Assembly (NCBI RefSeq): GCF_024708915.1 | Contig: NZ_JANJXQ010000030.1 | Location: 1 to 23,257 of the forward strand | Direction of reading: 5' to 3' | DNA from: Thiobacillus sp. | GTDB lineage: Bacteria; Pseudomonadota; Gammaproteobacteria; Burkholderiales; Thiobacillaceae | DNA length: 23,257 nt | In this document: one piece after another, positions 7,362-20,674 of the stretch | Layout of the letters: the number at the start of each line of letters is the position of its first letter | Position numbering within the stretch: the first letter of the stretch is position 1 | Translations under genes and position numbers: made by a program | The notes under the pieces: model-generated | Told to the model about the DNA's origin: nothing | The model's database searches: none | Seen by the model: the letters and a program-made list of their open reading frames with translations, nothing else

Positions 7362-8466
7362 ATGGAAGCCGAAAGCCTCAATCAGATCGAATCCAGCCTC
7401 GCCGACCTCGGCGAGCGTGCCACCCAGCTCAGGGGGTTTCTTTGACTACCCTGTCAAGCAGGACCGCCTAGAAGAAGTCGTCCGCCTGTCCGAAGCGCCG
7501 GACTTCTGGAACGACGCCGCCCGCGCCCAGGAACTAGGCCGCGAACGCAAGGCGCTGGAAGACGTGGTGCTGGTGCTCGACCGCGTGGCGTCGGGCCTCG
7601 CGGACGCGGCCGAACTGTTCGAGATGGCGCGCGAGGAGAACGACGACGACACGCTGGCCGCCGTGCAGGCCGACATCGAGGGCATCGAAAAGGACGTCTC
7701 CACGCTGGAATTCCGCCGCATGTTCAACAACCCGGCCGATTCCAACAACTGCTTCATCGACATCCAGGCCGGCGCCGGCGGCACCGAAGCCTGCGACTGG
7801 GCGTCGATGCTGCTGCGCCAATACCTGAAATACGCCGAGCGCAAGGGCTTCAAGGCCGAGCTGCTGGAAGAATCCGAAGGCGACGTCGCCGGCATCAAGT
7901 CGGCCTCGATCAAGCTCGAAGGCGACTACGCCTACGGCACCCTGCGCACCGAAACCGGGGTGCACCGCCTGGTGCGCAAATCGCCGTTCGACTCGTCCGG
8001 CGGCCGCCACACCAGTTTCGCCAGCGTGTTCGTCTATCCCGAGGTGGATGATTCCATCGAGGTGGAAATCAACCCGGCCGACCTGCGCGTCGACACCTAT
8101 CGCGCGTCCGGCGCCGGCGGCCAGCACATCAACAAAACCGACTCGGCGGTGCGCATTACCCACCTGCCGACCAACATCGTGGTGCAGTGCCAGAACGACC
8201 GCTCGCAGCACAAGAACCGCGCCGAGGCGATGTCGATGCTGAAGTCGAAACTGTACGAAGCCGAACTGCGCCGCCGCCAGGCCGAACAGGACAAGCTCGA
8301 AGCCGGCAAGTCAGATGTCGGCTGGGGCCACCAGATCCGTTCGTATGTGCTGGACAATTCGCGCATCAAGGATCTGCGCACCAACGTCGAAGTCTCCGCC
8401 ACGCAGAAAGTGCTCGACGGCGATCTCGACGTGTTCATCGAAGCGAGTTTGAAACAGGGCGTGTAA
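7362..8466 (+). CDS. prfB: Peptide chain release factor 2 (programmed +1 frameshift)
   Basis: RF2 recognises UGA and UAA stop codons and triggers peptide release in the ribosomal A site. Translation starts at ATG 7362 and reads 27 codons ([13 protein letters not shown]..., ending LRGFL) to an in-frame TGA at 7443-7445. A +1 shift at CTT-TGA-C then continues as [12 protein letters not shown] to the TAA at 8464, giving 367 residues, close to E. coli RF2 (365). The catalytic GGQ is in [20 protein letters not shown], and the stop-codon-reading SPF tripeptide is in [14 protein letters not shown]. Naive gene calling would start this gene downstream of the shift. In many proteobacteria lysS follows; here the stop codon directly abuts the first gene of a Wadjet-type operon. 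Confidence 0.97.
7431..7446 (+). promoter_or_regulatory. prfB: RF2 autoregulatory +1 frameshift site
   Basis: AGGGGG (7431-7436), an internal Shine-Dalgarno-like element, is followed after three bases by CTT TGA C (7440-7446). This is the canonical layout of the RF2 frameshift signal, where low RF2 lets the ribosome slip +1 and make more RF2. Confidence 0.95.
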
Positions 8467-9741
8467 ATGGACGCGCCCGACCACAGCGGGAGCCTGGCGG
8501 AGTTCCTCGCGCCGGGTCTGCTTGCGGAAGACATCCCGCCGCTGTTCCCGCTGCTCGCCGCGCGCCCGCTGGTCGGCGCGCTGATCGCGTTGTTTCGCGG
8601 CGGCGACGACGAGGTGCTGATCCGGCTGATGGTGCTGCGCGAAATCGGCCTGCGCGCCGATGCGCCGGAATGGACGCCGCGCGAACTCGAATCGCATTTC
8701 GCCTACCTGTCGCAAACCAAGCTCAATACGGTGCTGGCGCGGCTGCGCGAACATGGCTTGCTGTTGTGGGACAGCGAGCGCCGCCTCTATCAGCTCTCGA
8801 CCGAAGGCCGCATGGTGCTGGCGGCGCTGTCGAACCTGCTGGCGTTCAATGCCGAGCAGGACGGCGAACTGGGTTTTCTGGCGGCGCAGGTCGCGGCCGG
8901 GGCGGCAGTGGGCAAGCTCGCACCGGAGGCCCTGTCGCATTTACTGGCACGGCTGGGCGAACTGGAAGAAGAGTTTGCGCAGGCAGTGGCGTCCGGTTCG
9001 GAATTCCGCCTGCGTGCCGCGCAGTCCAGACTGGCCTCGGTGCAGCAATGGCTCGACCGCGCCAACGCAGTGATGAAAAATCTCAGCGACGCCGGCCTCG
9101 ACGACGACAGCTGGCGGCTGGCGCAAAGCATCGGCCAGCGCCAGTCGCGGCTGCTGCGCATGGCGTCGGTGTTCCAGCGCGAACTGGCGGCGATCGCGCG
9201 CCAGCAGGTGCACCTGTCGCAGGGCGGCTTGTCCACTTCCGAACTCGCAGCCTGGCTGAAAACCCGATCGCTCGACAGCCTCGCTGAATTCGCTGATGGG
9301 CAGCTGGCGACCACGCCGGAGTCGGTGTTCGTGCTGCCCGACGTGATGCTCGACAACACCGAAGAATTCGTCGCGCGCGAGCAGCCCGGCCGCAAGACCT
9401 CTGCCATGCCCGCACCGGCCGAAATCGAATACACCCGCGACGTGCCGCTGGAACCACCGCGCGAACTGGTCGAATTGACCCGCATGCTGGCCGGGCTGGC
9501 CACGTCCGCGAGCGTTGCCGATACCGTCGTCGGCGGCAGCTTTGGATCGGCTTCCTACCGCTTGTCGCTCCTCGCGTTGATCGGCGAAACCAATATCGGC
9601 CCCGAACTTGCGCCGCTTGCCGAACTGCCGCTTGCCGTGGAATGGAGCGATGAAATGGAGGCGGTGGGACGTGGTGAAGTAGCGCATATCAGCGCCGGCC
9701 GCATTCAGCCGCAGCAAGAAAACAATGAGCCGCCCCTATGA
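8467..9741 (+). CDS. jetA: Wadjet-type kleisin-like subunit JetA (MksF-like)
   Basis: A 424-residue soluble protein, first of four overlapping genes with the layout of Wadjet/MksBEFG anti-plasmid SMC systems. By position and features it is the kleisin: a winged-helix-like N-terminus (TPRELESHFAYLSQTKLNTVLARLREHGLLLWDSERRLYQLSTEGR, ~74-118), a long helical middle (~120-260), and a C-terminal segment (~300-424) likely to dock on the SMC head. In these systems the kleisin bridges the SMC dimer and recruits JetB. The ATG directly follows the prfB TAA with no gap; AGGG seven bases upstream is inside prfB. The stop overlaps jetB as ATGA. The assignment rests mainly on the operon context and the neighbours JetC and JetD, since kleisins diverge strongly. 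Confidence 0.78.
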   Translation: MDAPDHSGSLAEFLAPGLLAEDIPPLFPLLAARPLVGALIALFRGGDDEVLIRLMVLREIGLRADAPEWTPRELESHFAYLSQTKLNTVLARLREHGLLLWDSERRLYQLSTEGRMVLAALSNLLAFNAEQDGELGFLAAQVAAGAAVGKLAPEALSHLLARLGELEEEFAQAVASGSEFRLRAAQSRLASVQQWLDRANAVMKNLSDAGLDDDSWRLAQSIGQRQSRLLRMASVFQRELAAIARQQVHLSQGGLSTSELAAWLKTRSLDSLAEFADGQLATTPESVFVLPDVMLDNTEEFVAREQPGRKTSAMPAPAEIEYTRDVPLEPPRELVELTRMLAGLATSASVADTVVGGSFGSASYRLSLLALIGETNIGPELAPLAELPLAVEWSDEMEAVGRGEVAHISAGRIQPQQENNEPPL

Positions 9742-10427
9742 ATACTGACGCCGCCGCCCGCCTGATCGCTCGCCTGCTGGCACTGCGCTATTTGCCGCGC
9801 GAAGACCTCGAAGTGCGCCGCCTGCTGGTCGACGCAAGCTTCCGCGACGAAGTCGAAACGCGGCTCGCCGCCAGCGGCCTGCGGCTGCTCGCCCAGCCTT
9901 TCGCCGCCCACATTGCGGTCGCGCTCGCCCGCGAACACGAGGCCGCCGTGTTCGAGCAGAACGACGCCTGGCAGGCTTCGAACATCGGTCTGCCCAAGGA
10001 TGCCGCCGCGCTGCTGGTGATCGTGTGGGCGCTCATCATCCTGCCCAAGCGCGAGCGCCAGCTGGCCAGCGAAGCGACGCAGAGCGACACGCAAAACGAA
10101 CTGTTCGAGACCGTGAAACTCACGCCCGCCGCGCACGAGGCCTCGCGCGGCATCCCCGAAAACGTGCTGCTGGAAGACTACGGCAAGCTGCTCGGCGGCA
10201 AGGCCAGACTGCAGCAGTTCGCGCTGCCGCAATTGTCGCGGCTGGGCTTCATCGAACGCCGCAACAAGGTCATCCACGAAGGCCCCTTGCTCGACCTGGC
10301 ATTCGACTACGCCGAGTTCGCGCCGCGCATTCTCGAAGGCGCGCTGTCCGATCTGCTCAAGCAACGCGGCGTACTGGAAACCGTTCCAAACGACGCACCT
10401 GAATCCGCATCCGAGGACAACGCCTGA
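9738..10427 (+). CDS. jetB: Wadjet-type KITE-like subunit JetB (MksE-like)
   Basis: A 229-residue protein in the position and size class of JetB/MksE, the small winged-helix (KITE) partner that binds the kleisin. Seen: a helical N-terminus with LPREDLEVRRLLVD, a central segment LPKDAAALLVIVWALIILPKRER, and a C-terminal winged-helix-like stretch (ENVLLEDYGKLLGGKARLQQFALPQLSRLGFIERRNKVIHEGPLLDLAFDY). The ATG overlaps the jetA stop (ATGA) and the TGA overlaps the jetC ATG by one base (TGATG). Translational coupling is therefore likely, as expected for subunits of one complex. Recognition is by context and by the fold-like pattern, not by a unique motif. Confidence 0.76.
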   Translation: MNTDAAARLIARLLALRYLPREDLEVRRLLVDASFRDEVETRLAASGLRLLAQPFAAHIAVALAREHEAAVFEQNDAWQASNIGLPKDAAALLVIVWALIILPKRERQLASEATQSDTQNELFETVKLTPAAHEASRGIPENVLLEDYGKLLGGKARLQQFALPQLSRLGFIERRNKVIHEGPLLDLAFDYAEFAPRILEGALSDLLKQRGVLETVPNDAPESASEDNA

Positions 10428-13198
10428 TGTTCCGCCTGCTTGAACTCGAAACCGTGCACTGGGATTTCTGGCGCAATTTCCGGCTGCCGCTCGACGCCTC
10501 CATCGTCACCATCTCCGGCCCCAACGGCTCGGGCAAGACCACCCTGCTCGACGCGCTGCGCACCCTTTTAGCCCTGGACTGCTCGAAAAAACGCGACTAC
10601 AAGCGCTACGTGCGGCGCAACGGCGAAGACTTCTGCTGGCTGCGCGGGGTGATCGACAACCAGCGCCAGCAGGGTTCGAGCCGCCGCCCGTTCGGCCTGC
10701 CCTACACCAGCGACCGCATCACGCTGGCCTGCCGCATCGACAAGAAGGGCGGCGACTGGACGCGCAAATACTGGATCGCCGACGGCGAAGTCGCATTGGC
10801 CGACCTCGAACAGCAGGGCGAAGAATTCGGCGTGCGCGACTACCAGCGCATCCTCCACGGCGCCGGGCTGTCGCCCGCCATCGCCCGCGTGCTCTCGCTC
10901 GAACAGGGGCAGACCGACAAGCTGTGCGAACTGTCCCCGCGCGAACTGCTCGACCTGGTGTTCCAGGTGTTCGGCGACAAGGACGTGCTCGACCGCTACC
11001 AGGAAGCGCGCCACCATCAGGAACACACCGCGCGCGAACTCGACGCCGGACAGAACCAGCTCGAAGCGCTCGGCAACAATCTCGAAAAGCACGAGCAGAA
11101 GGTCAACCGCTACCGCGAGTGGCAGCGCCTCAATCAGGAGCGCGTCGAGCTCGTCAGCGAAATCCGCCCACGCCTCGAACACTGCCTATTGCAGCGCGAG
11201 GCCGAGCATGCCGCGCGCACGCTGCTCGTCCAGCGCCGCGACTGGCGCGCCAAACGCCACGACCGCGCCGCATTGAAACTGGACTCGGACGCGCTCGACG
11301 CTGCGCTCGCGCAAGCCCTGCTGCGCAAGCGGGCCGCCAGCGACAACGAAGGCATCCAGAACAAAGCGCTCAACGACATCAACCGCGAACTCGGCGGCTG
11401 GGAAGTCATCGTCAAGCAGCAGCAGCGACTGGAACAACAGGCGCAGATGGCGGGCGGACAACTGGCCGACACACGCGAAATCGAAACGCTCGAATCGCAG
11501 CGTGCCGATCTGCTGGTCCGGATCGCCACGCTGCAGCAGCGCCAGGCCCAGCTCGACGAGATGCTGGAGAACCTCGCCGCCGGCCGCCGCGCCGATCCGC
11601 ACGACGTCGCCGCATTCCGCCAGGCCTTGGCTCAGGCCGACATCGACCACCACCTGCTCACCGACGTCGTCGAGATCGTCGACGCGAGCTGGCAGCCGGC
11701 GGTCGAGGCCGCGCTCGCGCCCTTCGCCCACATCGTGCTGCTGCAGCACGCGCGCGACGCCGAACGCGCGATGGCGCTCGGCGAAAAGCAGCGCTACCGC
11801 AACTTCATCGTTCCCGACTGCGTGAACGCGGGCCTTCCGCCGCAAGGCTCGCTGCTCGAAGTGGTGCGTTTTTCCAGCGCCGTGCCGGAATGGCTGCTGC
11901 GCACGCTGGAGCGCACCCGCCGCGTCGAAGACGTCGCCGCAGGCAGCAAGCTGCCGCGCGGCGAGGACTGGATCACGCGAAACGGCTATCTGCGCGAACG
12001 GCGCGGTGGCCGCCACGCGGCCCCCGAACAGATGCGCTTTGGCCGCGCCCGGCTCGATGCATTGCGCGACGAGCGCGCCGCACTCGACAAACAGTTGGCC
12101 CCGCTCAGAATCCAGCAGTCCGATCTCGCCGGCAGGATCAACGGCATGAAAGCGCAGCTGAGCGGCGAAACCGCCGCCGCGCAACTGGCCGGACGCGCCG
12201 CCGAATTCGCCGAGGCGCGTACGCAATATGAAGCCCTGGTGCTGCGCCGCCGCGACAACGGCGTGCTGGCCGCACAGACGGAACGCGAAACCGCCGATGC
12301 CGCCTACACGGATCTGCTCGCCCGTCGCACGGCGCTGGACGCCGAAGCTGCCCGCCTCGACCGTGAAATAGCCGAACGCGAAAACCGCAGCGGGCGCGAC
12401 GAACAAATTCGCCGCCGTCTGCAACTGCGGCGCGACCGCCGTCAGATGCCCGTTTCCTGGCGCGGCGCCGCGGCCAACCAGCAGTTGCTGGAGAAATGGC
12501 GCGACGCCACCAACGTCGACCGCCGGCTCGCCGAAATCGACACCAAGTTCGCCGACGAAAGCTGGGAAACCGACGACAGCGTGGTCGCCCTGCGCGACAA
12601 GATCGCCGCCAATTACCAGCAAATGGAACGCGACCTGGCCGCGCGCCGGCGCGACAACGAGCTCGCCGGCGAACAGACCCAGGCCGCGCGCGAGAACTAC
12701 ATCGCCGTGCTGCGCCACACCGTCGGCCGCTATGCAAAAAACCTCAAGACGCTGGGCGAAGTTGCCGGGATCAAGGTTGAACACGAGCCGGTGGCGCTCG
12801 GCAACGACGACACGACGCTGGCGCAGGCGGGGCTGTCGGTGCGCTTCGATTTCGACGCCAAGGGCTTCATGGGCATGAACGACGGCGACGCCTCCGGCGG
12901 CCAACAGGTGATGAAATCGCTGATCCTGCTGGTCGCCCTGATGATGGAAGAGTCGCGCCCCGGCGGCTTCGTCTTCATCGACGAGCCCTTCGCGCACCTC
13001 GACATCGTCAATATCGAGCGCGTGTCGGGTTTTCTGAAAGCCACCCGCGCGCAATATCTGCTCACCACGCCGGTCACGCACAACGTCAACATCTACGACC
13101 CGGCGACGCTCACCCTGGTGACGTTCAAGAAACGTCCGGGCGAGGCGTGGGCGCCTGGTGTAAAAGTCTTGATGCGCGATACCGCAACGGCGCATTGA
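10427..13198 (+). CDS. jetC: Wadjet-type SMC ATPase JetC (MksB-like)
   Basis: A 923-residue SMC-like ATPase, the motor of the complex. Walker A is GPNGSGKT (31-38). The ABC signature is SGGQQ (823-827). Walker B is FVFIDEP (848-854), followed by an H-loop-like LLTTPVTHNVNIY region. Between them run two long charged, Glu/Arg/Gln-rich coiled-coil arms (~185-390 and ~525-780) joined by a hinge-like segment around 400-520 (DVVEIVDASWQPAVEAALAP). By family knowledge, Wadjet complexes extrude DNA loops and detect small closed circles, which JetD then cuts; this protects cells from plasmids. At 923 residues it is much shorter than MukB. It overlaps jetB by one base and ends just before (or overlaps) jetD. 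Confidence 0.88.
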   Translation: MFRLLELETVHWDFWRNFRLPLDASIVTISGPNGSGKTTLLDALRTLLALDCSKKRDYKRYVRRNGEDFCWLRGVIDNQRQQGSSRRPFGLPYTSDRITLACRIDKKGGDWTRKYWIADGEVALADLEQQGEEFGVRDYQRILHGAGLSPAIARVLSLEQGQTDKLCELSPRELLDLVFQVFGDKDVLDRYQEARHHQEHTARELDAGQNQLEALGNNLEKHEQKVNRYREWQRLNQERVELVSEIRPRLEHCLLQREAEHAARTLLVQRRDWRAKRHDRAALKLDSDALDAALAQALLRKRAASDNEGIQNKALNDINRELGGWEVIVKQQQRLEQQAQMAGGQLADTREIETLESQRADLLVRIATLQQRQAQLDEMLENLAAGRRADPHDVAAFRQALAQADIDHHLLTDVVEIVDASWQPAVEAALAPFAHIVLLQHARDAERAMALGEKQRYRNFIVPDCVNAGLPPQGSLLEVVRFSSAVPEWLLRTLERTRRVEDVAAGSKLPRGEDWITRNGYLRERRGGRHAAPEQMRFGRARLDALRDERAALDKQLAPLRIQQSDLAGRINGMKAQLSGETAAAQLAGRAAEFAEARTQYEALVLRRRDNGVLAAQTERETADAAYTDLLARRTALDAEAARLDREIAERENRSGRDEQIRRRLQLRRDRRQMPVSWRGAAANQQLLEKWRDATNVDRRLAEIDTKFADESWETDDSVVALRDKIAANYQQMERDLAARRRDNELAGEQTQAARENYIAVLRHTVGRYAKNLKTLGEVAGIKVEHEPVALGNDDTTLAQAGLSVRFDFDAKGFMGMNDGDASGGQQVMKSLILLVALMMEESRPGGFVFIDEPFAHLDIVNIERVSGFLKATRAQYLLTTPVTHNVNIYDPATLTLVTFKKRPGEAWAPGVKVLMRDTATAH

Positions 13199-13200
13199 CC

Positions 13201-14346
13201 GTGCTGCGCGTCACCCCGCAGAGCAAAACCCGGCGGCTACGCGTAGCCAACCACCCGCCGCGCGGGCTCGACAGCCTGCCCGACGACTGGCGGCAACTCC
13301 TCAAACGCTGGGTCAGGCGCGGCGGCGACAGCCGCTGGGAAACGCTCAAGGGCGATGCCGGTGTGGGGCGGCAGAATCTGGCGCAGGCGCTGCTCGACTG
13401 GCTGCTGGACAACGGCTGGGTGGCGCTGACCGAGAAATTCGAGCGCGCGGAATGGTGGCCGTACCGGCTGCAGTTTCAGCAGCTCGCCACCCTGCGCGCA
13501 GCGCTCGGTATCGCCGATGCGGATGCCGTCGCCGCGCAATGGCAAACCCTGCGCACCGCCCTGCCGCCCGACACGCCGCTGCTCGACGCGCTCGATGCAC
13601 TGCCGCCCAGAACCGCGCTGGCCCGCGCCAACCTGGCCACCGCGCTCGCCCGCTGGCAGCTTGAGCAGCGCAGCGGCACCCAGCGCGATTTCGCCCTGTT
13701 CGCACGCGACGCCACCAAGGCCATCTCAACCGCGGAATGGACCTGGCTCGGCGAAGCCACCGACCTCGGCGAATGGGGCATCGAGCGCCACACGCCGCTG
13801 CTGCTGATCGCCGCGCCGGTCACGCTTCGTTTTCCACACGCTGCGCTAAACCTCGCCGCCTGCGCCGACTTTTGCGCCCTCACCCCCGCCACCCTGGCCG
13901 CCGCCGCGTCCGCCGACTGCGCGCCGGCCCGCTGGCTTCTGCTGGAAAACCGCACCAGCTTCGAGCGCGCCGCGCGCACCCGCGCAGCCGACGCCGGGGT
14001 CGTCTGGCTGCCCGGTTTTCCACCTGAGTGGTGGCGCAAAACCGTGGCATATTTGCTGGCCCTGGCACCCGCGCCCGCCGCCATCGCCTGCGACCCCGAT
14101 CCCGCCGGCGTCGCCATCGCCCTGCAGGCCGGTGCGCTGTGGCAGGCCGCCGGTCTCGACTGGCAGCCTTGGCACATGGACATCGCAACCCTGCAAAAAC
14201 TTCCCAGCCATGTTGCACTCAACGCCTGGGACAGCGCACGCATTGCGCAACTGAGACAGACGCCCGGCCTGCCCGCCACACTCGCGGCTTTGCTGGATTA
14301 CATGCAGCAGCACAAGCTCAAAGGCGAACAGGAAGGTGCGCTGTAA
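13201..14346 (+). CDS. jetD: Wadjet-type Toprim nuclease JetD (DUF2220)
   Basis: About 381 residues when started at GTG 13201, two bases after the jetC stop. TTG 13195 and GTG 13147 (inside jetC) are other in-frame choices; none has a clear ribosome-binding site, so the start is uncertain. The N-terminal ~150 residues are helical and winged-helix-like (WVRRGGDSRWETLKGDAG, QALLDWLLDNGWVAL). The C-terminal half carries Toprim-type catalytic motifs: E249 in LLENRTSF and D298/D300 in CDPDPAGVAIA, as in JetD/DUF2220 proteins related to the Spo11/TopoVIA nuclease fold. This is the subunit expected to cleave plasmid DNA. The active-site acids are present, so the operon looks functional. No obvious terminator follows. 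Confidence 0.83.
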   Translation: MLRVTPQSKTRRLRVANHPPRGLDSLPDDWRQLLKRWVRRGGDSRWETLKGDAGVGRQNLAQALLDWLLDNGWVALTEKFERAEWWPYRLQFQQLATLRAALGIADADAVAAQWQTLRTALPPDTPLLDALDALPPRTALARANLATALARWQLEQRSGTQRDFALFARDATKAISTAEWTWLGEATDLGEWGIERHTPLLLIAAPVTLRFPHAALNLAACADFCALTPATLAAAASADCAPARWLLLENRTSFERAARTRAADAGVVWLPGFPPEWWRKTVAYLLALAPAPAAIACDPDPAGVAIALQAGALWQAAGLDWQPWHMDIATLQKLPSHVALNAWDSARIAQLRQTPGLPATLAALLDYMQQHKLKGEQEGAL

Positions 14347-14418: not shown

Positions 14419-14718
14419 ATGCTCACACGCGTCTTCAAAAGCGGCAACTCGCTTGCCGTGCGCATTCCCAAGGAACTCGCCATCGTCGAGGCCAGCCAGG
14501 ATGTCGAGATTGAAAAAATCGGCGACACCCTGGTGCTGCGCCCGGTCGTGAAGCGCAAATTGACCGGGCTGGCCGAAGCGTTCGCGATGTTCACCCCCGA
14601 CTTCATGGCCGAAGGCCGCGAATTCCACGAGCAGAAGGAACGCGACTGGAGCGGTTTCGATGAAGCCTCGCAGCTTCATCAGGAAACGCCAGACTACAAG
14701 CCCAGCGGCAGCAAGTAA
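14419..14718 (+). CDS. vapB: VapB-type antitoxin (AbrB/MazE-like)
   Basis: A 99-residue antitoxin. The N-terminal ~50 residues are an AbrB/SpoVT swapped-hairpin DNA-binding domain (MLTRVFKSGNSLAVRIPKEL... EIEKIGDTLVLRP). The acidic, Pro/Gln-rich tail (~60-99) is the part that would wrap the VapC toxin. The start at 14419 is chosen for the strong AAAGGAGG eight bases upstream and for agreement with the family N-terminus; a longer frame from 14368 would run through the operator. vapC follows after three bases. Autoregulation through the upstream palindrome is likely. Confidence 0.92.
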   Translation: MLTRVFKSGNSLAVRIPKELAIVEASQDVEIEKIGDTLVLRPVVKRKLTGLAEAFAMFTPDFMAEGREFHEQKERDWSGFDEASQLHQETPDYKPSGSK

Positions 14719-14721
14719 GCC

Positions 14722-15117
14722 ATGCGCTACATGCTGGACACCAACATCTGCATCTACCTGATGAAGGCGCACCCGCCCGAGGTATTGGCGCGTCTGCTTC
14801 ATCTCGATCACGGCGACGTCGTCATGTCGATCATCACTTACGCCGAGTTGCGCGTGGGACTCGAAGGACTCGGTTCCACCCGCGCACAAAACGAACGCGC
14901 ACTGCACCTGCTGACAAGCGATATTCCCGTCCTGCCCTTCGATGAAGCCGTAGCCGAACGCTACGGCGTGCAACGCGCCGCCGTCCGCGACCGCCGCCGC
15001 GACGCGTTGGATCGGCTGATCGCCGCACACGCCGCCAGCCTCGGTCTCACCCTTGTGACCAACAACGAAGCGGATTTCAGGGATTATCCCGGCCTCGTCG
15101 TCGAAAACTGGGTTTAA
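14722..15117 (+). CDS. vapC: VapC-type PIN-domain ribonuclease toxin
   Basis: A 131-residue PIN-domain toxin; members cleave specific RNAs such as initiator tRNA or rRNA loops. The four acidic active-site positions are visible: D6 (MLDTN), E42 (TYAEL), D97 (ALDRLIAAHA) and D118 (TNNEADF), so it looks active. The length is normal for VapC. It is translationally linked to vapB (3-base gap). The mini-HsdM gene begins only 30 bases after its stop without a strong ribosome-binding site or promoter of its own, so vapBC transcription may continue into the restriction remnant. Confidence 0.93.
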   Translation: MRYMLDTNICIYLMKAHPPEVLARLLHLDHGDVVMSIITYAELRVGLEGLGSTRAQNERALHLLTSDIPVLPFDEAVAERYGVQRAAVRDRRRDALDRLIAAHAASLGLTLVTNNEADFRDYPGLVVENWV

Positions 15118-15147: not shown

Positions 15148-15726
15148 ATGACCTACCCGCTTGCCGACCTGCTCAAGGACAGCGCCTACAAACTGACCCA
15201 GTTCAGCGCCGAGAAAATCAAAGCCCTTGAATCCGCAATCACCGTCAAGGAGGCGGGTAAGAAACCCGCACCCTACGTCACCTGCCTCGTGCGCGGGAAC
15301 GTGTTCAAACCGCACACCGGCACCAAGACCAGCGTGCTGTTCGTGCAAAAGTGGAACGACGATGCAAAAACCGGCCCGCTGTGCCCGCGTCTGGACGACT
15401 ACCCCATCTTCTTCGCCACCATGCGCGAGCCAAGCAAGGACAACAGCGGCGACAAGATTTTTGTGAAGCTGAAAGACGGCGAGGCCTGGGACCCCAACGC
15501 ACCATCAACCAATGAAATCAAGGTCTCGGAGCCGGTCGACCACTACGATGTCGCCCCACAAACCCTGAACGACTTCGTGCTCGACGAGCATGAGCACCTG
15601 GTGGTGAAGCACGACTTGTTCAGCCACACGCTGAAGGACGGCAAACGAACGCCCGACGGCATCGCCGAGGCCTTCATCGAATTCGCCAAGAATGAAGGCC
15701 TGGGGTTCTGGCGGGGAAAGCCCTGA
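15148..15726 (+). pseudogene. Internally deleted type I DNA methylase (HsdM) remnant
   Basis: A 192-residue open frame built from two ends of an N-6 adenine methylase. Residues 1-50 (MTYPLADLLKDSAYKLTQF ... APYVTCLVRG) resemble the N-terminus of HsdM proteins that carry an HsdR_N-like domain. Residues 51-192 (NVFKPHTGTKTSVLFVQKW, PLCPRLDDYPIFFATM, DNSGDKIFVK, DGIAEAFIEFAK) resemble the C-terminal part of the catalytic region. Everything between is missing, including the SAM-binding FxGxG and the catalytic NPPF/Y motif. Normal HsdM is at least ~480 residues. The join at G50/N51 (near 15298) is in frame, which points to a clean internal deletion. It cannot methylate DNA as it stands. It is followed by hsdS; no hsdR is present. 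Confidence 0.78.
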
Positions 15727-15755: not shown

Positions 15756-17213
15756 TTGTTGGAAGGGCTGGAGGCGACTGAAATACCTTGGTCTTCACTT
15801 AACGCTGAGGTTCGCTACGAAGCGGAGTTCTTCCAAAAAAAGTACCTGCGAGAAGATACATATCTCGCGAAATTTCCGGAGCAATCCATCGGAAATTTTG
15901 CTTATGTCACGGATGGCCCGCATGGCTACCACATAGTAGACGAATCGTCACCAATCGCAATGCTGACAGCAAAATGTGCGAAGGACTGGTTCACTGACCG
16001 CTCTTCGGCAGAGACCATTACTGAGTCAGTGAATTTGGCAAACAGGCGATCCATGCTTGAAAAAAATGACATTATTTTGTCCACGCGCGGCACCGTTGGT
16101 ATGTGTGCGCTTGTAACTAAGGAAGCGCTCCCCGCGAATATCGACCAAGATGTTGCACGCATTTCATGGCTTGATAAGCAGTCCATTCGACCAGAATTCG
16201 TTATTGCGTACCTGAACTCAAAGTTTGGCCAAGACCACATACGGCGCTATTCATCTGGAATGGTTCAGCAAGGTCTATCACTTCAAAAAGTTCGGGAAAT
16301 CCCAATACCTCTGCTGTCTGACCGAGTGCAGGGCGCATTGGCGATAGCAGTTCAAAGCGCACTCAAATCTCGCCGTGAAGCCTCGTTGAAATCCGACGAG
16401 GCCGAATCAATTCTCCGTCGCGCCCTTGGTGTCGAAAAGTGGCAAGCTCCAGAGCCGCTGACTTATGTCCGCAACAGTAGCGCCGTCTTCGCCGCCGGGC
16501 GACTGGATGCTCAATATTTCCAGCCCGAAAAAGCTGCCGCGCTCGAAATCCTGGCTGCTGCTTCCGATTCAGTGATTGGGAATTACTACGAATCCATCCG
16601 CGATCTGTGGCAACCCGACAATGGCCAACCTGACGAACAGGTGCGTAACTACGATCTCAGCGATGCGTTGGTTCCATTTCTTGACGGCAATAAAGAACTT
16701 GCCGAACGTGGCACCATTGCAAGCACCAAGAAGAAAATCGAGGAAGGCGATTTGGTGGTTTCCCGCCTGCGTTCCTATCTCAAGGAAATCGCCATCGTTC
16801 AATCGAGCGCCGATGTTCCCATGGTCGCATCGACCGAATTCATCGTGCTCCGCCCGCGTCAGGCGAACCCCCTCCCTATCGAAGCCCTGCTGATTTATCT
16901 GCGTTCCCATTTGCCGCAACTAATTTTCAAATGGTCGCAAGACGGATCCAATCATCCACGCTTCGACGAAAAGGAGTTGCTCAAGCTTCCCGTGCCGCGC
17001 GTTGTAGTCGAGCAGGCAGACCAATATGTTGAAATCGTCAACGCAATGGTTACAGCACGAGAAAAATCCGCCCAACTGATCGACGCCGCCAAGCGCGCAG
17101 TGGAAATCGCCATTGAGCAGGACGAGGCGGCGGGTCTGGCCTACTTGGCGGCGCAAAGCGCACTGAGCCCGGGCGTTCAGCCCTCCGCCAGCACAGCTGG
17201 ATATTTACAATGA
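15756..17213 (+). CDS. hsdS: Type I restriction-modification specificity subunit HsdS
   Basis: 485 residues from TTG 15756, with two target-recognition domains separated by helical spacers. The first half (~20-215) contains SIGNFAYVTDGPHGYHI, DIILSTRGTVGMCAL, YSSGMVQQGLSLQKVREIPIPLL. The second (~245-440) contains RLDAQYFQPEK, DLVVSRLRSYLKEIAIV, WSQDGSNHPRFDEKELLKLPVPRV. HsdS sets DNA sequence specificity for HsdM/HsdR. In-frame residues upstream (LSPFNETRYREL from 15723) look like genuine HsdS sequence. An ATGA overlap with hsdM may therefore have decayed to CTGA, leaving only weak start codons. The first recognition domain is A/T-richer than the flanks. With HsdM truncated and HsdR absent, it is probably an orphan. 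Confidence 0.87.
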   Translation: MLEGLEATEIPWSSLNAEVRYEAEFFQKKYLREDTYLAKFPEQSIGNFAYVTDGPHGYHIVDESSPIAMLTAKCAKDWFTDRSSAETITESVNLANRRSMLEKNDIILSTRGTVGMCALVTKEALPANIDQDVARISWLDKQSIRPEFVIAYLNSKFGQDHIRRYSSGMVQQGLSLQKVREIPIPLLSDRVQGALAIAVQSALKSRREASLKSDEAESILRRALGVEKWQAPEPLTYVRNSSAVFAAGRLDAQYFQPEKAAALEILAAASDSVIGNYYESIRDLWQPDNGQPDEQVRNYDLSDALVPFLDGNKELAERGTIASTKKKIEEGDLVVSRLRSYLKEIAIVQSSADVPMVASTEFIVLRPRQANPLPIEALLIYLRSHLPQLIFKWSQDGSNHPRFDEKELLKLPVPRVVVEQADQYVEIVNAMVTAREKSAQLIDAAKRAVEIAIEQDEAAGLAYLAAQSALSPGVQPSASTAGYLQ

Positions 17214-17264
17214 AGCGTTCATCGTCAATAGTTGCAACCACACCCTGCCTTAAGGAGCACCGCC

Positions 17265-17450
17265 ATGAACACGGCTAAAGAGTTGATCCAGAATCTGGTG
17301 CAGTCGCAGCCCGAGGATGCCACTTACGACGAGATCGTTCGCGAACTGGCGTTTGATCGCATGGTGCAGCGCGGGCTGGAAGACGCACGCAAGCACCGCG
17401 TGGTCGGCAACGAAGACATGCTGCACCGGATCAAGACGTGGTCGAACTGA
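17265..17450 (+). CDS. Small antitoxin of a ParE/RelE-type module
   Basis: A 61-residue protein starting MNTAKELIQNLVQSQPEDATYDEI and ending in RGLEDARKHRVVGNEDMLHRIKTW. This pattern (a short helical N-terminus, then a charged tail that recalls E-x-R-V) is typical of small antitoxins encoded just ahead of RelE/ParE toxins. AAGGAG lies seven bases before the ATG. The toxin frame begins inside its last codons (GTG at 17438), so the pair is translationally coupled. It may still be made, although its toxin gene is broken. The exact family name is uncertain. Confidence 0.78.
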   Translation: MNTAKELIQNLVQSQPEDATYDEIVRELAFDRMVQRGLEDARKHRVVGNEDMLHRIKTWSN

Positions 17451-17736
17451 GGTGGACGAACGAAGCCCAGACGTGGCTTCGCGACATCTTCGACTACATC
17501 GCCGGCGACAACCCGCAGGCCGCCGCCAGCGTTGTGGAAGGCATCTATGCGAAAGCCCGGTATTGCTCAGTTTTCCGGACGTAGGCTACCGCTACCGTCA
17601 GGTTGAAGAGGGCGAGATACGCATCCTGTTGTACGGCCATTACCGCATCGCCTATCTGCACCGGCAAGATAGCGAATCAGTGGACATTCTTGGCGTGTTT
17701 CACGGCGCACTCGAGATTGACCGGTATTTTCCATAA
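17438..17736 (+). pseudogene. Frameshifted ParE/RelE-type toxin
   Basis: The first frame runs from GTG 17438 (MVELRWTNEAQTWLRDIFDYIAGDN... EGIYAKARY) to a TAG at 17582-17584. A second frame, shifted by one base near 17555-17562, continues with the expected family sequence (VLLSFPDVGYRYRQVEEGEIRILLYGHYRIAYL ... DILGVFHGALEIDRYFP) to the TAA at 17734. Joined, the two parts make a normal ~100-residue RelE/ParE fold. One missing base in the CCCGG run at 17556-17560 would explain the break. As written the toxin is inactive; a sequencing or assembly error is the alternative. Confidence 0.82.
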
Positions 17737-17863
17737 GGTCGGGCAGGCCCAGCATCGCCGCCCTGCCCGCTCTGTCGTTGCACCTGCCTGTTTATTGTTT
17801 GGCACGTCCGTCAATCCGCTTTTCGGAATTTCCTGGAAGAGGGGATCCGGTTGAATCGAACGG

Positions 17864-17941: not shown

Positions 17942-20674
17942 ATGCGCACCGAAACCCCCGTCACGCTTCACCTCAAGGACTACACCCCGCCCGTCTGGCT
18001 GATCGACACCGTCGATCTTCGCGTGGCGATTTCGGATGGCCACACCGAAGTCGAAGCCCGCCTCGCCTGCCGTCGCAACCCGGCGGCCGCAGGCGGCGCA
18101 CTGGTATTGAACGGCGAAGCACTGGAGTTGACGGGCATCACGCTCGACGGCGCCACGCTCGATCCGGCGCGTTTCACCCATGCCGACGACCGGCTGACGA
18201 TAGCCGGGCCGCTGCCGGATGCCTGCGTGCTGGAAACCGTGGTGCGCATCGATCCGGACCGCAACACCCAACTCTCGGGTCTGTACAAATCGAAGGACGG
18301 CTACTTCACCCAGTGCGAGGCGGAGGGCTTCCGCCGCATCACCTTTTTCCCCGACCGGCCGGACGTGATGACGGTGTTTACCTGCACCGTCGAAGCCCGT
18401 CGCGAGCAGTTCCCGCTGCTGCTGTCGAACGGCAACCCGGTTGCCGCGGGCAGCAGCGACGACGCGACGCGCCACTGGGTACGCTGGGAAGACCCCTTTC
18501 CCAAGCCCGCGTATCTGTTTGCGCTGGTCGCGGCGAAGCTCGACATACTGGAAGACCGCTTCGTCACCGCGTCGGGCCGCAGCGTCCGGCTCGAAATCCT
18601 GGTCGAGCCCGGCAAGCTCGACCAGTGCGGCCACGCGATGGCGGCGCTGAAAAAAGCCATGCGCTGGGACGAAACGCGCTTCGGCCTGGAGTACGACCTC
18701 GACCGCTACATGATCGTGGCGGTGGGCGACTTCAACATGGGCGCGATGGAGAACAAGGGCCTCAACGTCTTCAACACCAAGTATGTGCTGGCGCGCCCCG
18801 ACACCGCGACCGACGCCGACTACCAGGGCATCGACCGCGTGGTGGCGCACGAGTATTTCCACAACTGGACCGGCAACCGCGTCACCTGCCGCGACTGGTT
18901 CCAGCTCTCGCTGAAGGAAGGGCTCACCGTCTTCCGCGACCAGGAATTCGGTGCCGACGTGCATTCGCGCGCTGTCACCCGCATCCAGGAAGTGCGCGCC
19001 CTGCGCGCCGGCCAGTTCCCCGAGGACGCCGGCCCGATGGCGCACCCGATCCGGCCCGCCTCCTACGCCGAGATCAACAACTTCTACACCGCCACCGTCT
19101 ACAACAAGGGCGCGGAAGTCATCCGCATGATCCACACGCTACTCGGCGAAGACGGTTTCCAGCGCGGCATGCGGCTCTATTTCCAGCGCCACGACGGCCA
19201 GGCCGTCACCTGCGAGGATTTCGTCGCCGCCATGCAGGACGCCTCCGGCGTCGACCTCGCGCAGTTCCGCCGCTGGTACGCGCGCGCCGGCACACCGGTG
19301 CTGAAGGCGGCGGGCGTTTACGACGCCGCGGCGCAGACCTGCACGCTCACGCTGACGCAAACCCTCGCCCCCACCGCCTACGAAAAACGCCTCGCGGAAT
19401 CCGGCCAGGCCATCGACGACGGCCCGCTGCATCTGCCCGTCGCCGTCGGCCTCGTCCTGCCCGACGGCCGCGACGCGCCGCTGAAACTCGCTGGCGAAAC
19501 TGCCGCTGCCGGCACGACGCGCGTGCTGTCGCTGAAAACCGCCGAACAGCGCTTCGTCTTCGAAGACGTGCCCGCCGCGCCCGTCGTCTCGCTGCTGCGC
19601 AATTTCTCCGCACCCGTGCGGCTGGAATTCGAACAGACCGACGCCGAGCTTGCCCACCTGATGGCGACGGATTCCGATGCCTTCAACCGCTGGGAAGCCG
19701 GCCAGCGCCTCGCCACCCGCGTGCTGCTCGCCGGCATCGCCGCACAGCAGTCACCCCCCCTCCCGCAGGCGGGAGAGGGCCGGGGTGAGGGAAATGCACC
19801 GAACGAAAACTGGATCCCGCAAACCTTCGTCGACGCCTGCGCGCGCGTACTTGCCGACGGTCTCGCAGGCGACGCCGCGCTCGCCGCCGAAGCCCTGATG
19901 CTGCCGTCCGAAACCGTACTCGCCGACAGCGTCGCAGCACGCGGCGGCGTCATCGACCCCGACGCGATCTTTGCCGCAAGGCTCGCGCTGCGCCGCGCGC
20001 TCGCCGTGGCACTGCGCGACCCGTTCGAAGCCGCCTGGCAGACGCTCGCCCCGGCGGGCGACTACGCCCCCGATGGCGCGCAAGCCGGCCGCCGCAGCCT
20101 GCGCAACACCAGCCTCGCCTACCTGGCCGACGCCGCACCGGCGGACATCGCGCCGCGCCTCGTCGCGCAGATTGAAACCGGCACCAACATGACCGACGTC
20201 GCCGCCGCGCTCGCCACCCTCGCCCAGCTCGACGTGCCCGAACGCGTACCTGCACTGACCGCCTTCCACGACAAATGGCAGGACGAAGCCCTGGTCGTCG
20301 ACAAATGGCTGGCCATCCAGGCCACCGCGCGCATCACCACCGCCGCCACCGTGCGCGAACTCATGCGCCACCCCGCCTTCGACCTCAAAAACCCCAACCG
20401 CGTCTACGCCCTGATCCGCGGCTTTACCGGCGCCAACCCACGCGCCTTCCACGCTGCCGACGGCGCAGGCTACGCGCTCGCCGCCGACGTCATCGTCGAA
20501 CTGCAGGCGATCAACCCGCAGGTCGCATCCAGAATCGCGCGCAGCTTCGACCGCTGGCACGCCTTCGACGCCGGGCGGCAGGCGCACGCGCGTGCCGCGC
20601 TGGAGCGCATCGCGGCGGTCGAGGGACTGGCGAAGGACGTGGCGGAGGTGGTGGGGAATGCGTTGAGGGGGTGA
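17942..20674 (+). CDS. pepN: Aminopeptidase N (M1 metallopeptidase)
   Basis: A 910-residue cytoplasmic zinc aminopeptidase that removes N-terminal residues from peptides late in protein turnover. Seen: the exopeptidase motif GAMEN (267-271), the zinc site HEYFH (303-307) with the third ligand E326 in LKEGLTVF at the standard spacing, and the tyrosine-bearing NNFYTATVYNKGAEVIRM region. The C-terminal helical domain ends in RIARSFDRWHAFDAGRQ...RIAAVEGLAKDVAEVVGNAL, as in E. coli PepN (870 residues). The extra length is partly a repeat-encoded insert at ~604-617 in a surface-like loop. GGAG lies five bases before the ATG. The gene marks the right border of the accessory region. Confidence 0.96.
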   Translation: MRTETPVTLHLKDYTPPVWLIDTVDLRVAISDGHTEVEARLACRRNPAAAGGALVLNGEALELTGITLDGATLDPARFTHADDRLTIAGPLPDACVLETVVRIDPDRNTQLSGLYKSKDGYFTQCEAEGFRRITFFPDRPDVMTVFTCTVEARREQFPLLLSNGNPVAAGSSDDATRHWVRWEDPFPKPAYLFALVAAKLDILEDRFVTASGRSVRLEILVEPGKLDQCGHAMAALKKAMRWDETRFGLEYDLDRYMIVAVGDFNMGAMENKGLNVFNTKYVLARPDTATDADYQGIDRVVAHEYFHNWTGNRVTCRDWFQLSLKEGLTVFRDQEFGADVHSRAVTRIQEVRALRAGQFPEDAGPMAHPIRPASYAEINNFYTATVYNKGAEVIRMIHTLLGEDGFQRGMRLYFQRHDGQAVTCEDFVAAMQDASGVDLAQFRRWYARAGTPVLKAAGVYDAAAQTCTLTLTQTLAPTAYEKRLAESGQAIDDGPLHLPVAVGLVLPDGRDAPLKLAGETAAAGTTRVLSLKTAEQRFVFEDVPAAPVVSLLRNFSAPVRLEFEQTDAELAHLMATDSDAFNRWEAGQRLATRVLLAGIAAQQSPPLPQAGEGRGEGNAPNENWIPQTFVDACARVLADGLAGDAALAAEALMLPSETVLADSVAARGGVIDPDAIFAARLALRRALAVALRDPFEAAWQTLAPAGDYAPDGAQAGRRSLRNTSLAYLADAAPADIAPRLVAQIETGTNMTDVAAALATLAQLDVPERVPALTAFHDKWQDEALVVDKWLAIQATARITTAATVRELMRHPAFDLKNPNRVYALIRGFTGANPRAFHAADGAGYALAADVIVELQAINPQVASRIARSFDRWHAFDAGRQAHARAALERIAAVEGLAKDVAEVVGNALRG
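19752..19791. repeat. GC-rich palindromic repeat inserted inside pepN
   Basis: CTCCCGC-AG-GCGGGAG (19760-19775) is a perfect 7+7 palindrome followed by AGGGCCGGGGTGAGGG. This is the core of a dispersed repeat seen in many proteobacterial genomes, usually between genes. Here it is read in frame as SPPLPQAGEGRGEG (PepN residues 604-617) without breaking the gene. Confidence 0.75.

Follow-up and report, generated by a model that had tools for sequence, protein, structure and literature searches.

What is an operon resembling the plasmid-cutting Wadjet systems doing flush behind prfB, the gene for release factor 2 (RF2), and what might it do in relatives where the nuclease gene is missing? These questions are raised by a 23,257-nucleotide (nt) stretch of Thiobacillus sp. 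DNA (contig NZ_JANJXQ010000030.1; hereafter the window), in which four genes, jetA to jetD, follow prfB. The explanation that accounts best for the results, and one we hold to be fairly probable, is that the operon is a divergent chromosomal JetABCD system of the Wadjet/MksBEFG kind, coupled upstream where it docks at prfB, with the nuclease JetD as an optional effector. The relevant features are as follows (aa, amino acids; SMC, structural maintenance of chromosomes).

7362..8466, + strand: prfB, encoding RF2 (TIGR00020 498 bits; Pfam PCRF and RF-1 domains; start ATG 7362 read from the sequence)
8456-8459, + strand: AGGG, 7 nt ahead of the jetA ATG, a possible Shine-Dalgarno sequence that is also part of the Gln-Gly codons of RF2
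8467..9741, + strand: jetA, kleisin-like (MukF/JetA-like), 424 aa
9738..10427, + strand: jetB, putative KITE protein (MukE/DUF4194-like) by position and size, 229 aa; TGA 10425-10427
10427..13198, + strand: jetC, SMC ATPase with hinge, 923 aa (ATG 10427, TGA 13196-13198; SMC_N 61 bits)
13201..14346, + strand: jetD, winged-helix/Toprim nuclease, 381 aa; start most likely GTG 13201

The TAA stop of prfB (8464-8466) is followed by the jetA ATG at 8467 with 0 nt between them, as the initial annotation of this DNA had read it. That annotation also described four overlapping genes, which holds for jetA/jetB (4 nt) and jetB/jetC (1 nt) and not for jetD, which lies behind a 2-nt gap if the start at 13201 is right. 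An alternative start in the list of open reading frames (ORFs), GTG 13147, would lengthen JetD by 18 aa; among the matches listed (the first 86), homologues are mostly 380-381 aa and a few 399 aa, and the residue numbering given initially for JetD agrees with the 13201 start.

Identity of the four proteins

The window was compared with the best 80 of 134 relatives found via two peptide patterns, all of them beta-proteobacteria by name or unassigned proteobacterial bins; many of these loci are metagenome bins, and the distribution that they give is a lower bound. The SMC identity of JetC was borne out, since the window protein holds the Walker A, SGGQQ signature and Walker B motifs and an exact-pattern scan of 71 JetC copies found the signature and Walker B in all 71 and the Walker A pattern in 66. 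In addition, the JetC hinge profile aligns with that of type I JetC at 97.4% probability over 182 columns. The two-domain fold of JetD, winged helix plus Toprim, was confirmed in its predicted structure, which resembles MksG/JetD, Topo VI-A and Spo11 in structure comparison. Its proposed Toprim residues E249, D298 and D300 are present in the window and in nearly all of 33 relatives (32, 33 and 32, respectively), in which Pfam found DUF2399 (13), JetD_C (7) and Spo11 Toprim (7). When JetD was compared by profile with type I and type II sets (of three and two sequences), the type I alignment spanned 309 columns with a probability of 96.7%, and type II reached 0.3%.

The other two identities are less firm than had been proposed. 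The JetA model, which is moderately confident, was matched best by MukBEF/MukEF/MukF entries, leaving the kleisin identity at a moderate level, and JetB is the weakest assignment of the four, with DUF4194 found in eight of 34 family members (best E 4e-4) and not in window JetB itself.

Taken by its sequence, the operon is a divergent member of the Wadjet/MksBEFG family, nearest to type I by profile-profile comparison; the likeness to Wadjet/MksBEFG is supported by the JetD fold, the SMC motifs, the gene order and the Pfam JetD_C, DUF2399 and DUF4194 matches in relatives. The initial annotation had found a poor fit to any named Wadjet type, and this proved correct. Against the PADLOC models, JetC matched JetC1 partially (3.4e-17), its best row being mad3 (4.9e-19) and not a Jet model, and JetC2 and JetC3 were absent among the matches listed (25 of 66 rows); JetD matched the type I model partially (1.3e-12) and JetD2 at E 0.002. 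The profile check that had been suggested thus succeeded in part for SMC and nuclease and gave nothing for kleisin and KITE, and the four proteins do not all match type I profiles over their full length. The positive control, a same-class type I operon, gave best PADLOC values of 1.5e-62, 7.8e-42, 1e-198 and 1.5e-51 for its A to D proteins. We dropped the assignment of a named type via PADLOC, Pfam and NCBIfam, as these gave partial or weak matches only, including a Pfam MukB match of JetC under the cut-off (16.3 versus 23 bits). Current defence finders may miss the JetABCD family of the window.

Several results weigh against the assignment. No PADLOC Jet model matched window JetA or JetB, and in relatives the matches were weak and few (JetA1 in two of 37, JetB1 in two of 34), JukB being a better match than JetA1 in 12 of the 37. 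The JetA and JetB profiles had no match to type I, using small alignments with three type I sequences each. In structure comparison the MukF rows of JetA stood barely above unrelated ones, and a Foldseek search with JetA reached E 0.01, with no match at E 0.001 or better. Profile searches of solved structures with alignments A3, A4 and A5 returned no Jet/Mks chain. The window JetD had no Pfam Toprim match, and two relatives depart from the active site: the JetD of L116 (10039-11151, Pseudogulbenkiania subflava) has Gln for the catalytic Glu and that of L125 (9888-11006) has His for D300, the second Asp of the DxD motif.

Comparison with known systems gives a similar picture. With Wadjet type I the operon shares the kleisin-KITE-SMC-Toprim order, the alignable JetD, the JetC hinge and the JetD fold, but its SMC protein is 923 aa long versus about 1130-1200 in three type I operons and its JetA and JetB are unrecognised by type I models. 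It differs from MksBEFG of Corynebacterium glutamicum in that Pfam MksE has no match in genome G001, yet matches C. glutamicum and E. coli. The MksBEF condensin of P. aeruginosa is likened by gene content to the nuclease-free three-gene set of 27 relatives, whereas the window operon has a nuclease; the same gene separates it from MukBEF, despite the likeness of its JetA model.

A class-wide JetC search of 229 genomes, with three candidates scored per genome, found the family at full similarity in one (G001); 47 genomes matched, the other 46 with short SMC-type matches. Among 16 same-order genomes outside the genus, two encode a JetC that is 44-45% identical. JetC-like pieces of 39-41% identity were also seen on two large Variovorax plasmids (NZ_LR594690.1, 543090-544562; NZ_LR594663.1, 180832-182181), neither piece covering 80% of the query.

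The prfB dock and control of jetA

JetC is encoded in seven of 25 Thiobacillus genomes, and in all seven it lies 3' of prfB, directly in five and behind a vapBC pair in two. The prfB region was examined in 20 of these genomes (seven with JetC and 13 without); in the jet-less ones, prfB is followed directly by pepN in six, by vapBC in two, by a vapB-like piece at ~300 nt in one and by no probe match in four, two of which have a lysS-like match 2.6 kb on. More widely, prfB and jetA occur together in 30 of the 80 loci: 13 Thiobacillus-type (seven being the genomes above), eight Gallionellaceae-type, eight Methylophilaceae-type and one Rhodocyclaceae, the groups being drawn from record titles and the JetC tree. 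In 20 of the 30, jetA could begin -4 to +20 nt from where prfB stops; the distance is 123 nt in one (L073), and the remaining nine have an insert. Eight of the inserts are 726-865 nt long, of which seven match the PIN toxin of the window and one (L071) is PIN-like by eye; the ninth (L072:3076-4895, 1.8 kb) holds an ATPase gene plus a 195-aa gene, named by eye, and looks like another defence pair. In all nine, a possible jetA start falls -4 to +20 nt from the stop of the inserted gene. At the prfB dock, the placement of jetA next to the stop of the preceding ORF is the rule, and control specific to RF2 is not required.

In five of six loci tested, the operon is followed, either at once or with one or two ORFs in between, by a gene for a class II tRNA synthetase that we take to be lysS; a lysS-like match was also found 53-853 nt behind prfB in nine of ten same-order genomes. 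The operon therefore occupies a prfB-lysS neighbourhood of long standing, which has become prfB-pepN in much of Thiobacillus. The dock itself is old, and the placement is found also in some other beta-proteobacteria; a defence-type operon is kept flush behind genes of an essential neighbourhood in several bacterial families. Within the collection of papers searched, and judged by keyword co-occurrence alone, no literature was found on a Wadjet-type operon at prfB or on prfB as a defence integration hotspot. Distances of prfB and JetC correlate over 27 loci (Mantel r 0.75), and within families the values are 0.34 for Thiobacillus (p 0.08), -0.19 for Gallionellaceae (p 0.91) and 0.29 for Methylophilaceae (p 0.22); all of this is weak, as the protein distances are short. 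Strict co-inheritance of prfB and jet was dropped on account of this incongruence within families; it is more probable that jet moved into this one slot within families.

Coupling to an upstream gene cannot be extended to the whole family, and the relevant counts run counter to a general form of our explanation. In 25 loci (24 without prfB, plus L095), with ORFs picked by length only, some of which may be spurious, the nearest upstream ORF runs opposite to jetA in 16 and in the same direction in nine. Accumulibacter loci and Gallionella L094, from the same JetC clade, have no prfB upstream. Same-strand neighbours include genes for adenylosuccinate synthetase (L094), an aldehyde dehydrogenase-family proA-like protein (L100), a phosphomannomutase-type protein (L102) and obgE (L116), and same-strand neighbours end 43-204 nt before the aligned jetA start. 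Because of the 16 opposite-strand neighbours, upstream coupling was abandoned as a family-wide rule, and it is taken to belong to the prfB dock. Where the preceding gene is divergent, as is common away from prfB, the operon needs a promoter itself, and the same must often hold in lineages with other neighbours.

At the dock, the operon would lack a separate leader: the stop of the ORF before it coincides with or adjoins the jetA start, and jetA would most likely be translated by termination-reinitiation on a read-through transcript. We consider read-through transcription and coupling from prfB to jetA likely, because the flush junction was confirmed and is conserved, and because a search for sigma-70-like sites inside prfB, a weak test in GC-rich DNA, found none; an internal promoter there was what the initial annotation had named as speaking against a shared transcript. 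An Rfam search gave no match. The AGGG that had been read as ribosome-binding-like for jetA does lie inside prfB, 7 nt before the ATG. It was dropped as a dedicated site since it belongs to the RF2 tail codons: the prfB 3' end encodes SLKQGV, a tail that recurs, whether or not jet is present, in nearly all the prfB copies listed, including those of jet-less Thiobacillus. The locus would be a naturally occurring example of a housekeeping gene that is likely coupled in translation to a predicted DNA-cutting system.

The prfB of the window carries an intact AGGGGGTTTCTTTGAC frameshift cassette, with the +1 programmed frameshift at CTT TGA C (7440-7446). Across 49 prfB rows, in which six genomes occur twice, the frameshift stop is TGA in 43 and TAA in four (three genomes), and two rows end before the site. 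The TAA form, CTT TAA C, was seen in Thiobacillus L052 (G024), L054 (G003) and L057/L065 (G023); both release factors should terminate there. Diversity at 4-fold sites of the prfB 3' end is 0.167 in genomes with the flush junction versus 0.248 in others, given here without a significance test, which is suggestive of extra constraint, although recombination would give the same difference.

Two alternatives bear on this placement. In one, scarcity of RF2 would increase frameshifting, more ribosomes would arrive at the end of prfB and start again on jetA, and termination stress would thereby raise JetABCD. The flush junctions, the predominance of TGA at the frameshift stop and the absence of a detected sigma-70-like site all agree with this mechanism, but nine of the 30 prfB loci have an intervening module that jetA adjoins instead, other lineages have other upstream neighbours, UAA replaces UGA at the frameshift site of one genome with jet (L057/L065), and the lower 4-fold diversity is equally expected from recombination. 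RF2 autoregulation, which the initial annotation had raised as a possibility, is therefore not a required feature, and we consider the stress mechanism quite unlikely; within our preferred explanation RF2 autoregulation may change the jetA level where jetA is flush with prfB without being a necessary part. The other alternative is that an ordinary defence cluster landed behind prfB by chance in this strain. The window does have, in the same slot, an orphan HsdS-like gene as well as a vapBC-like pair, but a strain-specific accident is refuted by two counts: all seven JetC-bearing genomes of the genus have JetC 3' of prfB, and in 30 of 80 loci prfB adjoins the operon. Chance adjacency is left with only a very slight probability.

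Loci with and without the nuclease

By analogy with known Wadjet biochemistry, JetC dimers would join with the kleisin JetA and the KITE protein JetB into an SMC motor that extrudes loops, and the cutting of small circular DNA would fall to JetD as a Toprim nuclease of the Topo VI/Spo11-like kind. A jetD gene is found beside jetC in 41 of the 80 loci and is absent in 29, the other ten ending too early. The three genes jetA, jetB and jetC are held by 27 of the 29, the exceptions being L078, which begins inside jetC, and L107, in which no jetA was found. Whole-genome searches for jetD in these 29, in which two positive controls were found, located it elsewhere in four, as a remnant in one and not at all in 24. 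The four are Chromobacterium (L148-L151), in which the 16-18 kb fetched around the unlinked jetD contains no JetABC. The remnant is in L088 (Thiobacillus 65-1402), where an intact jetC is followed by only the last ~34 codons of jetD and then pepN, which is a deletion scar. Among the genomes sampled, jetD is absent in those of Vogesella and Noviherbaspirillum and in most of the Chitinibacteraceae. On a quick JetC tree (78 rows, nine unknown rows left out) the state of jetD changes at least eight times; the direction of change is established only for L088, which tempers our explanation.

In the pairs tested, jetABC is under purifying selection without jetD: the ratio of nonsynonymous to synonymous substitution rates (dN/dS) for jetA, jetB and jetC is 0.02-0.19 in eight chosen pairs that lack an adjacent jetD, and 0.02-0.22 in six chosen pairs that have one. 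JetD would thus be an optional effector, lost or unlinked in several lineages, and since jetABC is kept under such selection there, a further role of the motor that does not need the nuclease is probable; on these data JetABC probably also works without the nuclease. An ScpA match was found in 18 of 19 host genomes tested, and JetABC would usually be an extra SMC complex. The only genome of the 19 without an ScpA match is that of Chitinibacter tainanensis (L109, G043), which has JetABC without JetD; there JetABC may act as the main condensin.

These observations could also mean that the operon is mainly an accessory chromosome condensin, MksBEF-like, with JetD minor or regulatory and plasmid defence not its main function. 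The 29 jetD-less loci, the purifying selection on jetABC and the case of Chitinibacter tainanensis all favour such a role, but 18 of the 19 host genomes encode ScpA and hence probably Smc-ScpAB, JetC is patchy in Thiobacillus (seven of 25), within families JetC distances do not follow those of prfB, as expected of horizontally moving genes, and most JetD copies keep their active-site residues. We consider a mainly condensin function unlikely, and return to a JetABCD system with an optional nuclease. A more specific form of that explanation, to which we give slightly less than an even chance, is that the nuclease is a detachable module without which JetABC is condensin-like, that Wadjet-to-MksBEF conversion has occurred repeatedly in beta-proteobacteria, and that forms at the prfB dock keep their upstream coupling, often to RF2. 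A published proposal derives nuclease-free condensins such as MksBEF from plasmid-cutting Wadjet systems (PMC10586767). Such an origin is hard to test, but in the present family the nuclease is present, absent or unlinked among close relatives, which makes the conversion step directly testable.

Other modules between jetD and pepN

Besides the operon, the slot between prfB and pepN holds the following in the window.

14419..15117, + strand: vapBC-like pair, a small antitoxin-like gene (named by eye) plus a PIN toxin gene (PIN 76 bits)
15148-15726: ORF of unknown kind, 192 aa, after the vapBC-like pair
17942..20674, + strand: pepN-like M1 peptidase gene (Peptidase_M1), the right border of the slot

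Homologues of the vapBC-like pair occupy the prfB-jetA or prfB-pepN slot in relatives, and such pairs and other small modules likewise insert in the prfB-lysS neighbourhood. A type I restriction specificity (HsdS-like) gene lies at 15756-17213 (485 aa, Methylase_S) and is an orphan: among those window ORFs that were scanned, neither HsdM nor HsdR turned up. Before pepN, a small conserved stretch at 17263-17741 resembles a relBE-type pair (named by eye); L053 and L055 also have its first ORF, at 79-86% identity.

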